Origin: Roseovarius nubinhibens ISM | GTDB lineage: Bacteria > Pseudomonadota > Alphaproteobacteria > Rhodobacterales > Rhodobacteraceae | Length of the DNA stretch: 64,000 bases | NCBI RefSeq assembly: GCF_000152625.1 | Contig: NZ_CH724156.1 | Coordinates: 3,278,602 to 3,342,601 of the forward strand | Reading direction: 5' to 3' | Shown here: one piece after another, positions 19,960-25,222 of the stretch | Layout: every line of letters begins with the position of its first letter | Numbering within the stretch: the stretch's first letter is position 1 | Notes under the pieces: model-generated | Database searches by the model: none | What the model was told of the DNA's origin: nothing | Seen by the model: the letters and a program-made list of their open reading frames with translations, nothing else | Program-made: the position numbers and the translations under genes

Positions 19960-19996
19960 GAATGGCCGCACTTTCGTGAAAGGACAAAGGACCACC

Positions 19997-20650
19997 ATGC
20001 CCGAGGTTATCTTTCCCGGCCCCGAAGGCCGTCTCGAAGGCCGCTACCACCCGCAAAAGGAAAGAGACGCCCCGATCGCCATCGTCCTGCACCCGCATCC
20101 GCAGTTTGGCGGGACGATGAACAACAAGGTTGTCTATAATCTCCATTACGCCTTCTACAATATGGGCTTCACCGTGCTGCGGTTCAATTTCCGCGGCGTC
20201 GGGCGCAGCCAGGGCGAATATGATCAAGGCGTGGGTGAGCTCTCGGATGCCGCTTCGGCGCTCGACTATCTGCAGTCGATGAATGCCAATTCCAAACATT
20301 GCTGGGTCGCGGGCTTCTCCTTTGGCGCCTGGATCGGGATGCAGCTCTTGATGCGCCGCCCCGAGATCACCGGCTTTGTCTCGGTCTCACCGCCGGCCAA
20401 CATGTATGATTTCTCCTTCCTCGCGCCCTGCCCGTCCTCCGGGCTGATCATCAACGGCACGAATGACCGCGTGGCGCCACCCGCCGACACCCAGACGCTC
20501 GTCGCCAAGCTGCAAGAACAGCAAGGCATCACCGTCACCCATGAAGAGCTCGAAGGCTCCGGCCATTTCTTCGAAGAGCCCCATATGGACACGATGATCG
20601 ACACCGTCACCGGCTATGTGAAACGCCGCCTCACCGAAGGCACGCGCTGA
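19997..20650 (+). CDS. Alpha/beta hydrolase family protein
   Basis: A 217-residue serine-hydrolase-fold protein. It opens MPEVIFPGPEGRLEGRYHPQ, then AIVLHPHPQFGGTMNNKVV (oxyanion region HPHPQFGG) and FNFRGVGRSQG. The nucleophile elbow reads AGFSFGAWIG (G-x-S-x-G), Asp is likely in IINGTNDRVAP and His in EGSGHFFEEP. Close relatives are annotated only as hydrolases; the substrate is unknown. The start at 19997 has AAGGA upstream; a GTG at 19976 is less likely. It is followed after three bases by the next gene and faces the iscR promoter. Confidence 0.8.
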   Translation: MPEVIFPGPEGRLEGRYHPQKERDAPIAIVLHPHPQFGGTMNNKVVYNLHYAFYNMGFTVLRFNFRGVGRSQGEYDQGVGELSDAASALDYLQSMNANSKHCWVAGFSFGAWIGMQLLMRRPEITGFVSVSPPANMYDFSFLAPCPSSGLIINGTNDRVAPPADTQTLVAKLQEQQGITVTHEELEGSGHFFEEPHMDTMIDTVTGYVKRRLTEGTR

Positions 20651-20653
20651 GCC

Positions 20654-20914
20654 ATGGGGGTTGCCGAGGATCTTGCCGACGAACTGGCCCGCGATGTGAT
20701 CAAATACATCGACGCGACCGGCGGGGATGAAAAGATCATCGCCGATATCGTCGGCGTCCTCGGGGCCTCGTCTCAAACCGCCGAAGAGGCGTTTCTCACC
20801 GCGATCCGCGTCCGCCGCGCCAATATCAAGGCCCGCGCCCTACTGATGGAACGCGCCCGCGCCTTCAAGGCCGAGCAAGAGGCCAAGGCCGGCGCGGCGA
20901 AACAGCCCGAGTAG
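20654..20914 (+). CDS. Small conserved helical protein
   Basis: An 86-residue, highly charged, all-helical protein (DELARDVIKYIDATGGDEKI, then VRRANIKARALLMERARAFK and an Ala/Lys tail). There is no signal peptide and no Cys. I do not recognise a characterised family. It starts three bases after the hydrolase stop and ends before a strong terminator, so the two genes form a bicistronic unit. Confidence 0.7.
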   Translation: MGVAEDLADELARDVIKYIDATGGDEKIIADIVGVLGASSQTAEEAFLTAIRVRRANIKARALLMERARAFKAEQEAKAGAAKQPE

Positions 20915-20950
20915 CGAAAATCCCGGCGCAAGCCGCACAAAATCTTTCCA

Positions 20951-20979
20951 AAGGCGGTCAGCCCCTGACCGCCTTTTTT
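20951..20979 (+). terminator. Terminator of the hydrolase operon
   Basis: AAGGCGGTCAG pairs with CTGACCGCCTT across a CCC loop, followed by a run of T. Confidence 0.9.
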
Positions 20980-21065
20980 GTTGCAGATTGACCGCGTCCT
21001 TAGAACGCCCGCGATCACGGACAAGCCCCCCACCTTCACAAAACTGACACATCCCCATCGCGTCT

Positions 21066-21108
21066 CCGTGAGCCAGTTCTCACGGCCCATCACACGCGAG
21101 CGTGAGCC
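21066..21108. promoter_or_regulatory. Candidate operator upstream of the LPNGF genes
   Basis: Two nested patterns lie 100-140 bp before the first LPNGF gene. CCGTGAG-N6-CTCACGG is a perfect inverted repeat (21066-21085), and CGTGAGCC occurs twice as a direct repeat (21067-21074 and 21101-21108) 34 bp apart. CACGC-GA-GCGTG (21093-21104) is a second small palindrome. No confident -35/-10 pair was found nearby. Confidence 0.45.
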
Positions 21109-21208
21109 TATTTCATTCCCTTGGGCCACCCCCATTTGCTGTCTCACAAACGGCGACACACCGCCGCCTGAACAACAGACACACAGAGACACACGAAGGA
21201 CAAACATC

Positions 21209-21442
21209 ATGCGTATTCTTGCAACCACCGCCACTCTCATCGCCCTCGCAGCCCCGGCCTTTGCCGCCGTGCCTGACGCCCTGCCCAACGGCTTCGGCCA
21301 GGATCAACACATCGGCGCGCTGCCCAACGGCTTCGATCAGCCCGAGCATATCGGTGCCCTGCCGAACGGCTTCGAGCCCGACGAGCGTCGCGGCTACACC
21401 CTGCCCAACGGCTTTGAGCGCGACGAAAGCCGCGACCGCTAA
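21209..21442 (+). CDS. Secreted LPNGF-repeat protein, copy 1
   Basis: A 77-residue precursor. Residues 1-19 are a Sec signal peptide (MRILATTATLIALAAPAFA, cleavage after AFA). The mature 58 residues are almost wholly four tandem repeats of 13-14 residues, each beginning LPNGF (residues 25, 38, 51, 65). The variable part moves from QDQHIGA through QPEHIGA to Arg/Glu/Asp-rich sequence at the C-terminus. There is no Cys. GAAGGA precedes the ATG; the open frame runs further upstream but without coding signal. The protein is identical to copy 2, 270 bp downstream. I know no characterised family; export to the periplasm or outside is inferred from the signal peptide. Confidence 0.8.
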   Translation: MRILATTATLIALAAPAFAAVPDALPNGFGQDQHIGALPNGFDQPEHIGALPNGFEPDERRGYTLPNGFERDESRDR

Positions 21443-21478
21443 GCCCCCACAAAACACATCAGATTAAGGATCAAAACC

Positions 21479-21712
21479 ATGCGTATTCTTGCAACCACCG
21501 CCACTCTCATCGCCCTCGCAGCTCCGGCCTTTGCCGCCGTGCCTGACGCCCTGCCCAACGGCTTCGGCCAAGATCAGCACATCGGCGCGCTGCCCAATGG
21601 CTTCGACCAGCCCGAGCATATCGGTGCCTTGCCGAACGGCTTCGAGCCCGACGAGCGTCGCGGCTACACCCTGCCCAACGGCTTTGAGCGCGACGAAAGC
21701 CGCGACCGCTAA
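21479..21712 (+). CDS. Secreted LPNGF-repeat protein, copy 2
   Basis: Identical in protein sequence to copy 1 over all 77 residues, signal peptide included. The DNA differs at six positions, all synonymous (for example GCC/GCT, CAG/CAA, CTG/TTG). It has its own AAGGAT ribosome site and a strong terminator follows. The 36-bp gap between the copies shows no terminator, so both are likely to be on one transcript. The duplication unit is 270 bp. Function is unknown. Confidence 0.8.
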   Translation: MRILATTATLIALAAPAFAAVPDALPNGFGQDQHIGALPNGFDQPEHIGALPNGFEPDERRGYTLPNGFERDESRDR

Positions 21713-21732
21713 GCCAGGTCAACGCTTAACGC

Positions 21733-21769
21733 AACGCGGTCCCCACCCCGGGGGCCGCGTTCATTTTTG
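21733..21769 (+). terminator. Terminator of the LPNGF gene pair
   Basis: A 12-bp stem (21733-21744 with 21750-21761, one G-U pair) is followed by CATTTTTG. It overlaps the last base of mfd and may serve both strands, although the T run is only on the plus strand. Confidence 0.8.
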
Positions 21770-24700
21770 TGCAGAGGTGCGTTTCTTCTCGGCGACGACC
21801 TTCTCGGCCAGATCACGGGCAATGGCAAAGGCCCCCTTGATCTTGTCGCCATCCTTGCGCCAGTCGCGGCGCACCACGATCTTGTTGTCGCGGATCTTGG
21901 CCAGCCCGTCCTGCGCCTGCACGAATTCCACAAGCCCCTGCGGCGAGGCGAATTTGTCGTTGTGGAACTGGATCGTCGCGCCCTTCGGCCCGCCGTCGAG
22001 CTTGGCAATCCCGGCCTTCTTGCACATGGCCTTGATCCGCACCACCAGAAGCAGCGTGTTGACCTCGCGCGGCAGCTTGCCGAACCGGTCGATCAGCTCG
22101 GCGGCAAAGCCTTCCAGCTCGACCTTGGTCTCAAGCCCGCTAAGACGCCGATAGAGCCCGAGCCGCACATCGAGATCGGGCACATAGTCTTCGGGGATGA
22201 GCACCGGCACGCCGAGATTGATCTGCGGCGCCCATTGACCATCCGCCTCGCTCAGGCCCTCGAGATCGCCCGATTTGATCTTGGCAATCGCCTCTTCAAG
22301 CATGGATTGATAGAGCTCATAGCCCACATCGCGCATCTGGCCGGATTGCTCCTCGCCAAGCAGGTTGCCCGCCCCGCGAATGTCGAGATCCTGACTGGCG
22401 AGCGTGAACCCGGCCCCCAGCGTGTCGAGCGACGACAAGACGCGCAGCCGCTTTTCCGCCGCCGGGGTGAGCTTGACCCGCGGTTTCGTCGTCAGATACG
22501 CATAGGCCCGCAGCTTCGACCGCCCGACACGCCCGCGGATCTGATAGAGCTGCGCCAGCCCGAACATATCCGCCCGATGCACGATCATCGTGTTGGCGCG
22601 CGGAATATCGAGACCGGATTCGACAATCGTCGTGGCCAGCAGCACATCATATTTGCCGTCATAGAACGCGTTCATCCGCGCATCGAGCTCGCCCGCCGCC
22701 ATCTGGCCATGGGCCACCGCGAACGTGACCTCGGGCACTTCGTTGCGCAGGAACTCTTCGATCTCGGGCAGATCGCTGACACGTGGCACCACGTAGAAAC
22801 TCTGCCCGCCCCGGTAATGCTCGCGCAACAGCGCCTCGCGCACGGTCACCCGGTCGAACTCGCTCACATAGGTGCGGATCGACAGCCGGTCCACCGGCGG
22901 CGTGCCGATGATCGACAGATCGCGCACCCCCGACAGCGACAGCTGCAACGTGCGCGGGATTGGCGTCGCCGACAGGGTCAGCACATGCACATCCGACCGC
23001 ATCTGCTTGAGCCGCTCCTTATGCGCCACGCCAAAGCGTTGCTCTTCGTCGATGATCAGAAGCCCAAGGTTCTCGAACCGCACCGACTTGGCCAAGAGCG
23101 CATGGGTGCCCACCACGATATCGACCTTGCCGCGCGCGAGGCCTTCGCGGGTCTTCGTCGCCTCGCCCGCCGACACAAACCGCGACAGCGGCGCGACATT
23201 GACCGGAAAGCCCCGGAACCTCTCGGCAAAGCTCTGGTAATGCTGCCGCGCCAGCAATGTCGTCGGCGCGATCACCGCCACCTGCTGGCCGGACATGGCC
23301 GCGACAAAGGCCGCGCGCATCGCCACCTCGGTCTTGCCAAAGCCCACGTCACCACAGATCAGCCGATCCATCGGCCGCCCCGACCCGAGATCCTCCATCA
23401 CATCCGAGATCGCGCCAAGCTGGTCATCGGTCTCCTGATAGGGAAAGCGCGCCGAAAACGCCTCCCAGGCGTGATGTTCGGGCTCGAGCACCGGCGCCTT
23501 GCGCAGCGCCCGCTCCGCCGCCACCCGGATGAGCCGATCCGCCATCTCGCGGATGCGCTCCTTGAGCTTGGCCTTCTTGGCCTGCCACGCGCCACCCCCG
23601 AGCCGGTCGAGCAAGCCCTCGTCATGGCCATAGCGGCTCAACAGCTCGATATTCTCCACTGGCAGGTAGAGCCGCGCGTTCTCGGCATATTCGAGCAACA
23701 GACATTCATGCGCCGCGCCCGCCGCGCTGATCACTTCCATCCCGTGATAGCGCCCGATGCCATGATCCACATGCACCACAAGATCGCCGGGGCTGAGGCT
23801 CTGCGCCTCGGTGAGGAAATTCTCGGCCTTGCGCCGCCGCTTGGGCGCGCGGATCAACCGGTCGCCGAGAATATCCTGCTCGGCAATCACCGTGAGATCG
23901 GGCGTCTCGAAGCCGTGCTCGAGCCCCCAGACCGTGAGATAGAGCCCCTGCCCGCGCAGCCCCTTGGCGTCGGTGACGCTCACCGCCCCAAGCAGACCCT
24001 CATCCTCGACAAGCCCCTCAAGCCGCTCGCGCGCGCCCTCGGAATAGGCGGCGATGAGCACCGGCCCGGCGCTCATCCGCGCCTCGACATGGGTTTTCAG
24101 CGCGGCAAAGAGGTTCACATCCTCCTGCTGCCGCTCGGGCGAGAAATTGCGCCCGACCCGCGCGCCCGCATCGATGATCCCCGGCCCCGGCGCCTGCGGC
24201 AAGGGGCTAAAGGCCAGCACCCGCCGCCCCGCCACCGCCGCGTCCCAGCCCGCCCCATCGAGATAGAGCTGACCGGGCGGCACCGGCTTATAGATCGTCT
24301 CGTCGCGCCCCTTGGTCTTGAGCGCATGCTGCCGCGTCTCATATTGATCGACCACCGACACCCACCGGGCGTCGCGCATCGCGGCGCTCTGATCGTCGAG
24401 CGTGACACTCGCCCCCGGCAGATAGTCAAACAGCGTCTCAAGCCGCGCGTGAAAAAACGGCAGCCAATGCTCGATGCCCTGATGCTTGCGCCCCGCGCTC
24501 ACCGCCTCATAGAGCGGATCATCGGTGCCCGCCGCGCCGAACTCGATCCGGTAATTCTGCCGAAACCGTGTGATCGCCGCCTCGTCGAGAATGACCTCCG
24601 ACACAGGCGCGAGCTCGATCTGGTCGAGCTTGGCCACCGTGCGCTGGGTCGCCGGATCAAACCGCCGCACCCCGTCGAGCACATCGCCAAAAAGATCGAG

Positions 24701-25222
24701 CCGAACCGGCCCCGCATCGCCCGGCGAGTAGATATCAATGATGCCGCCCCGGATCGCGTAATCGCCGGGCTCGGTCACCGTCGGTGCCTGGGTGAACCCC
24801 ATCCGCACCAAAAACGCCCTGAGCGCCTCTTCGTCGATCCGCTCGCCCACCTGCGCGGCAAAGGCGGCGCTTTGCAGCACCTCCCGCGCCGGCAGCTTCT
24901 GGGTCGCGGCATTGAGCGTGGTGAGCAGCACGAACCGCCCCGACATGCCATGCGCCAGTGCCGCCAGCGTCGCCATCCGCGTCGCCGAAATATCGGCATT
25001 GGGCGACACCCGGTCATAGGGCAGACAATCCCAGCCCGGAAAGGTGATGACCGGCAGATCGGGCGCGAAAAACCGCAGCGCCGCCTGCATCGCGACCATC
25101 CGCTTGTCGTCCCGCGCCACATGGATGACCGGGCCGCCGCTCTTGTCGCTTTCCTGAAGGATGAGCCGCGCGTCGAACCCCTCGGGCGCGCCGCCGACCG
25201 TGAATTTGAACTGTTCTGCCAT
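21761..25222 (-). CDS. mfd: Transcription-repair coupling factor Mfd
   Basis: An 1153-residue DNA translocase that removes stalled RNA polymerase from lesions and recruits UvrA. The N-terminal UvrB-like module is followed by an RNA-polymerase-binding region (SPGDLVVHVDHGIGRYHGM), the RecG-like motor with Walker A DVGFGKTEVAMRA, the box DEEQRFGV, TLSATPIPRTLQ and the TRG-type motif region, and a C-terminal D7 domain. Length matches the family (about 1150). The gene downstream on the same strand is 3 bp from its start codon. The long open frame on the opposite strand (1350 codons) is a GC-driven shadow. Confidence 0.96.
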   Translation of the reverse strand: MAEQFKFTVGGAPEGFDARLILQESDKSGGPVIHVARDDKRMVAMQAALRFFAPDLPVITFPGWDCLPYDRVSPNADISATRMATLAALAHGMSGRFVLLTTLNAATQKLPAREVLQSAAFAAQVGERIDEEALRAFLVRMGFTQAPTVTEPGDYAIRGGIIDIYSPGDAGPVRLDLFGDVLDGVRRFDPATQRTVAKLDQIELAPVSEVILDEAAITRFRQNYRIEFGAAGTDDPLYEAVSAGRKHQGIEHWLPFFHARLETLFDYLPGASVTLDDQSAAMRDARWVSVVDQYETRQHALKTKGRDETIYKPVPPGQLYLDGAGWDAAVAGRRVLAFSPLPQAPGPGIIDAGARVGRNFSPERQQEDVNLFAALKTHVEARMSAGPVLIAAYSEGARERLEGLVEDEGLLGAVSVTDAKGLRGQGLYLTVWGLEHGFETPDLTVIAEQDILGDRLIRAPKRRRKAENFLTEAQSLSPGDLVVHVDHGIGRYHGMEVISAAGAAHECLLLEYAENARLYLPVENIELLSRYGHDEGLLDRLGGGAWQAKKAKLKERIREMADRLIRVAAERALRKAPVLEPEHHAWEAFSARFPYQETDDQLGAISDVMEDLGSGRPMDRLICGDVGFGKTEVAMRAAFVAAMSGQQVAVIAPTTLLARQHYQSFAERFRGFPVNVAPLSRFVSAGEATKTREGLARGKVDIVVGTHALLAKSVRFENLGLLIIDEEQRFGVAHKERLKQMRSDVHVLTLSATPIPRTLQLSLSGVRDLSIIGTPPVDRLSIRTYVSEFDRVTVREALLREHYRGGQSFYVVPRVSDLPEIEEFLRNEVPEVTFAVAHGQMAAGELDARMNAFYDGKYDVLLATTIVESGLDIPRANTMIVHRADMFGLAQLYQIRGRVGRSKLRAYAYLTTKPRVKLTPAAEKRLRVLSSLDTLGAGFTLASQDLDIRGAGNLLGEEQSGQMRDVGYELYQSMLEEAIAKIKSGDLEGLSEADGQWAPQINLGVPVLIPEDYVPDLDVRLGLYRRLSGLETKVELEGFAAELIDRFGKLPREVNTLLLVVRIKAMCKKAGIAKLDGGPKGATIQFHNDKFASPQGLVEFVQAQDGLAKIRDNKIVVRRDWRKDGDKIKGAFAIARDLAEKVVAEKKRTSAQK

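Follow-up and report, generated by a model that had tools for sequence, protein, structure and literature searches.

A duplicated gene for a small LPNGF-repeat protein with a predicted signal peptide next to mfd in Roseovarius nubinhibens ISM

Main finding

We analyzed a window of 64,000 nucleotides (the whole stretch of DNA under study) of Roseovarius nubinhibens ISM, in which two adjacent genes encode one and the same small protein, made of a predicted signal peptide and four repeats led by LPNGF. Judging from its sequence, this is most likely an exported protein that displays a motif several times. Small exported lineage-specific proteins are common, and most of them are unexplained. What is new here is that a different small exported-looking peptide occupies the same place beside mfd in a few relatives. 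Our preferred account, held tentatively and at somewhat less than even confidence, is that of a lineage-specific exported small protein encoded by a unit bounded by hairpins, in which LPNGF would bind a partner and whose gene possibly descends from the micropeptide gene found at this place in relatives. The features of the region are as follows.

19976..20650, + strand: upstream neighbor, which we take to be an alpha/beta-hydrolase-like gene
20654..20914, + strand: upstream neighbor, conserved small gene of 86 aa (hereafter sm86)
20950..20976, + strand: terminator-like hairpin (hairpin scan) 3' of sm86, bounding the LPNGF unit upstream
21066..21085, no strand assigned: perfect 7-bp inverted repeat in the leader, candidate operator or RNA hairpin
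21209..21442, + strand: LPNGF-repeat protein gene, copy 1 (77 aa; signal peptide codons 21209-21265)
21479..21712, + strand: LPNGF-repeat protein gene, copy 2 (product identical to that of copy 1; signal peptide codons 21479-21535)
21733..21761, + strand: terminator-like hairpin (hairpin scan) 3' of copy 2, extending to the last base of mfd
21761..25222, - strand: convergent downstream neighbor that anchors the slot, presumably mfd (transcription-repair coupling factor)

Two copies with silent divergence

Each of the two ORFs spans 234 bp with its stop codon and their translations are the same 77 residues, in agreement with the preliminary description of this DNA, which had proposed adjacent genes for a single precursor. 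In the ORF listing, copy 1 is found inside a longer frame started by TTG (20978-21442). An AAGGA site can be read 5' of the ATG of each copy. The same description had counted six DNA differences between the copies, all synonymous, and this count is confirmed: all six are transitions, five at the third codon position and one at the first (CTG/TTG). When the same changes are read in the other five frames, between 0 and 4 of the 6 are silent, i.e., 2 to 6 of them change a residue, so that silence is complete in the coding frame alone. The chance that six out of six are silent is around 0.0017 under random transitions and 0.0011 when these are base-matched. A dN/dS comparison of the copies, which had been suggested at that stage, gave a dN of 0 for a dS of 0.11 (NG86). 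The 40 nt preceding the two start codons are identical at just 19 of 40 positions (ungapped), hence the near-identity of the copies is essentially confined to the coding sequence.

The silent divergence of the two copies fits purifying selection on the protein, and gene conversion acting within the coding sequence alone would leave an identical pattern. The preliminary description had left the choice between selection and gene conversion. Constraint on the protein gains from the silence in one frame only and from the LPNGF core, whose differences from unit to unit are silent, unlike those of the linkers (see below); conversion within the coding sequence may also have taken place.

Flanked on either side by a terminator-like hairpin, the pair looks, from the DNA, like a transcription unit of its own. 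The scan returned 3 terminator-like sites in 900 nt, for a mean of 1.1 (sd 1.1) in shuffled sequences. The predicted folding of the 232-nt leader (20977-21208) beats all 200 dinucleotide shuffles (z -3.29). Rfam gave only matches far below the gathering scores in the upstream region, and a search for the leader in the genus gave short stretches only, the best one outside the source genome being 29 nt long (E 0.007). A simple scan for sigma-70-like promoters near the pair found none. This last result, together with the tandem and internally repeated DNA and the lack of homologues in our searches (see below), would fit a tandem DNA repeat in which a reading frame is open by chance, i.e., no gene at all. 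We regard this as very improbable, since the changes are silent in one frame only, the LPNGF codons differ silently between units, and AAGGA precedes both starts.

A predicted exported chain with a constant core

The protein starts with a predicted signal peptide (MRILATTATLIALAAPAFA, assigned by eye and with a simple script), which leaves 58 residues without Cys. The units start at residues 25, 38, 51, and 65. The earlier reading of 58 mature residues forming four LPNGF-led repeats without Cys is thus borne out, with a signal peptide cut that was called by eye. It had also described a drift in composition toward the C-terminus. This stands for Gln (2, 1, 0, and 0 per unit, from the N- to the C-terminal one), for His (1, 1, 0, and 0), and for Arg, which is confined to the last two units; it does not stand for Asp and Glu, as one or the other is present in all four units, whose net charge is -1 or -2 each.

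The 12 pairwise comparisons of units (6 per copy) revealed no residue change in the LPNGF core, even if its codons differ in 11 of the 12, and the linkers between cores differ between units at 3-6 of their 7 residues. Cores that keep their residues despite codon differences, next to variable linkers, make LPNGF the likely constrained element, and it is probably the functional motif of the protein. Unaided structure prediction gave a pLDDT of 60.5 and a pTM of 0.16; a prediction of such low confidence is consistent with a disordered chain. The absence of a recognizable domain, claimed before from the letters alone, holds after searches of Pfam, NCBIfam, PHROGs, and the PDB, none of which yielded a relative of the protein. 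The Pfam scan gave nothing above cut-off, its sole listing being Antistasin (E 2, 9.5 bits for a cut-off of 21.2), and 0 families of NCBIfam matched. Proteobacteria have small exported proteins of the DUF4148 or DUF680 type, of undefined function and often present in several copies per genome. The LPNGF protein resembles them in being small and exported-looking, but that sub-threshold Antistasin match was all that the Pfam scan listed.

No relatives of the LPNGF protein in the genomes searched

The 77-aa protein was used as a query against 100 relatives (60 of the genus, including the source genome, and 40 of the class), with no accepted match beyond its own two copies. None was accepted either in 394 genomes of the family, 390 of the order, and 385 of the class, three samples that overlap. 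A profile of two LPNGF units (A1) searched over 84 genomes of the genus gave matches at E <= 1 in 29 of them, the best one outside the source genome having an E-value of 0.047. Named genomes, viral contigs, plasmids, and phages gave no LPNGF-repeat protein. These collections may omit records very near this stretch, and the absence does not cover other strains of the species. The preliminary description had proposed a search for LPNGF repeats in relatives and named the absence of homologues, jointly with that of a transcript, as what would speak against it; the search was negative in every set, which is half of that statement. A literature search for the LPNGF motif found no paper, and nothing was found on tandem orphan genes for small secreted proteins in Rhodobacteraceae.

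Several weaker candidates were rejected. LPNGF-like matches in genomes G021 (E 1.7e-4, listed again in the order-level search), G086 (0.0035), and G038 (0.0074) were judged to be chance because each lies on the strand opposite to a longer ORF with recognizable features (presumably dehydrogenase-like, aldo/keto-reductase-like, and permease-like, in this order). The source genome has two further weak matches (E 0.35 and 0.42), one of which overlies the ends of longer ORFs. At the DNA level, a pattern for two LPNGF units was found in at least 115 stretches of genome contigs and in 116 of viral contigs; among the 231 loci listed, 17 frames have at least two nearby PNGF and none is, by eye, a similar small secreted protein.

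The place beside mfd in other genomes of the genus

The C-terminus of Mfd was found in 81 of the 84 genomes of the genus, and the 3' side of the gene was covered in 79 of these 81, including the source genome (90 loci, with 11 genomes represented twice; G037 and G043 were left out). The LPNGF gene was found 3' of mfd in 0 of the 78 other genomes. We also observed sm86 on the mfd-side stretch of 42 of these 78 relatives. In 16 of the 42, the distance from the end of its match to the mfd stop is 29-164 nt, and in some others it exceeds 2 kb. Across the genus, the length of the gap between sm86 and mfd (here 20915-21760) thus ranges from 29 nt to more than 2.5 kb. Among the gaps that were read base by base, six short ones have no candidate gene and five longer ones have genes that we take to be HD-like and/or GNAT-like.

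We scanned this slot for ORFs of 25-130 aa with a signal-peptide-like start, on both strands and up to 900 nt from the mfd stop. The filter is heuristic and was checked on the LPNGF protein, and other kinds of peptides could escape it. Besides the two LPNGF genes, the scan recovered a small peptide with such a start, encoded 3' of mfd in convergent orientation, in 4 of the 78 relatives:

G009: 39 aa, ends 76 nt from the mfd stop
G003: 41 aa, ends 34 nt from the mfd stop
G013: 40 aa, ends 63 nt from the mfd stop
G052: 53 aa, ends 75 nt from the mfd stop

These micropeptides end in a two-Cys motif, CVPFGC[HY]DR in G009 and G003, and CGHPAGC[GT]NR in G013 and G052. The C-termini are conserved, with a dN of 0.080 for a dS of 0.69 (11 codons) and of 0.095 for 0.57 (10 codons), in comparisons that are very short. 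The gene order around the LPNGF pair recurs in G052, where hydrolase, sm86, and peptide are followed by mfd. On a tree of mfd (around 600 nt of the gene, read without support values), G003, G009, and G052 are in one neighborhood with non-carriers between them, and G013 and the source genome lie apart. A profile of the four micropeptides without the LPNGF protein (A2), which the four match by construction, revealed no fifth micropeptide in the 84 genomes of the genus. It reached E <= 0.002 in 18 of 384 genomes of the family, among the matches listed (19 candidates per genome scored among these). We judged these to be unrelated secreted proteins, because none extends past position 36 of the 41 of the model, leaving the C-terminal motif uncovered, and their frames have at least 140 residues. 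Plasmids gave no match to the micropeptide of G003, and the two-Cys peptides reached no cut-off in Pfam and NCBIfam. Two-Cys peptides beside mfd appear to be undescribed, to judge from one full-text search of the literature, which did not find CVPFGC.

Other ORFs were set aside: one in G023, 509 nt from mfd, was taken as chance; a secreted-looking ORF of 139 aa in G040, 232 nt from mfd, is a different protein; and a laxer scan of the slot gave many more ORFs, mostly in frames judged spurious.

The conserved Cys-loop ends of the two pairs in relatives would suit a signaling-peptide precursor, whose LPNGF units would be excised as a pheromone with the two-Cys peptides of relatives as its cyclic counterpart. 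The short products with predicted export and the repeated core, strict while its linkers are loose, also argue for it. We identified no processing sites, however, and the flanking genes (19976-25222) are presumably housekeeping-like, and we consider this explanation improbable.

Is the LPNGF gene related to the micropeptides?

The LPNGF gene resembles those of the micropeptides in being located 3' of mfd and convergent to it, with copy 2 at 48 nt from the mfd stop, compared with 34-76 nt for the micropeptides. Copy 2 is thus within the range that we used to define the slot (convergent, up to 80 nt from the mfd stop), and copy 1, behind it, is at 318 nt. The products share a signal-peptide-like start and an end in [DN]R (RDR in the LPNGF protein). 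They differ in that the micropeptides have 39-53 aa, a single gene, and a two-Cys loop, whereas the LPNGF protein has 77 aa, no Cys, four units, and two genes. The LPNGF protein lacks a C-terminal C-x(4,5)-C loop with x-[DN]-R after it. The spacing of P and G in ALPNGF is that of CVPFGC, which is easily due to chance.

At E <= 0.3, A2 matches nothing in the source genome but the two LPNGF copies (17.6 bits, E 0.029), through the signal peptide region alone. Since unrelated matches above 17.6 bits were found in 18 of the 79 other genomes (the four carriers and the source genome excluded), this score is at noise level beyond its own genome, and the LPNGF protein does not reach the E <= 0.002 of the partial matches in the family. 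In its comparison with A2, hhalign gave 94% for an alignment confined to the first 21 columns, which leaves the mature parts unaligned. The LPNGF protein ranked first, with 37.2 against 36.0 in the best of 48 control signal-peptide ORFs, these controls being drawn from loci brought in by the A2 searches. In pairwise comparisons within a set of 132 signal peptides (the LPNGF protein included), those of G013 and G052 scored highest against it (62 and 56), followed by unrelated ones (54, 53, and 53), while those of G003 (44) and G009 (30) ranked under several unrelated signal peptides. Descent of the LPNGF gene from the micropeptide gene of the slot is plausible, with its position and a signal-peptide resemblance at noise level as the only support. 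The scattered placement of the carriers on the mfd tree counts against it.

One may alternatively see in it an independent orphan, arisen de novo in the variable gap between sm86 and mfd or imported there from outside the sampled genomes, and unrelated to the micropeptides. This is a serious possibility, if not a probable one. It agrees with the failure to find a relative in any set, with a gap of variable length that carries other genes when longer, and with mature parts that cannot be aligned, likeness between signal peptides being cheap. Yet the LPNGF gene sits where the four micropeptide genes do, convergent to mfd and just as close to its stop, and its product ranks first among 49 signal-peptide ORFs scored against the micropeptide profile.

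Proposed function and significance

Under our preferred account, that of a lineage-specific exported motif protein, Sec export and cleavage by signal peptidase would release an acidic, mostly disordered chain of 58 residues displaying LPNGF four times. LPNGF would act as a short motif binding a periplasmic or extracellular partner; its repetition would increase avidity, and the second gene copy would increase the dose. Less surely, the gene may have retained the place and the signal peptide of a micropeptide gene, with loss of the Cys loop, amplification of LPNGF, and duplication of the gene.

A broader version, which we think rather unlikely, is that of a micropeptide locus anchored by mfd, where place and signal peptide persist and the mature part is exchanged between species (a CVPFGC loop of six residues, a CGHPAGC loop of seven, or a duplicated LPNGF protein without Cys). 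If true, this would be a fast-changing and so far unnamed system of secreted peptides, traceable in relatives by its neighbor and not by its sequence. Because a conserved neighbor anchors the locus, the birth of a gene, the change of its mature part, and its duplication may be traced across relatives.
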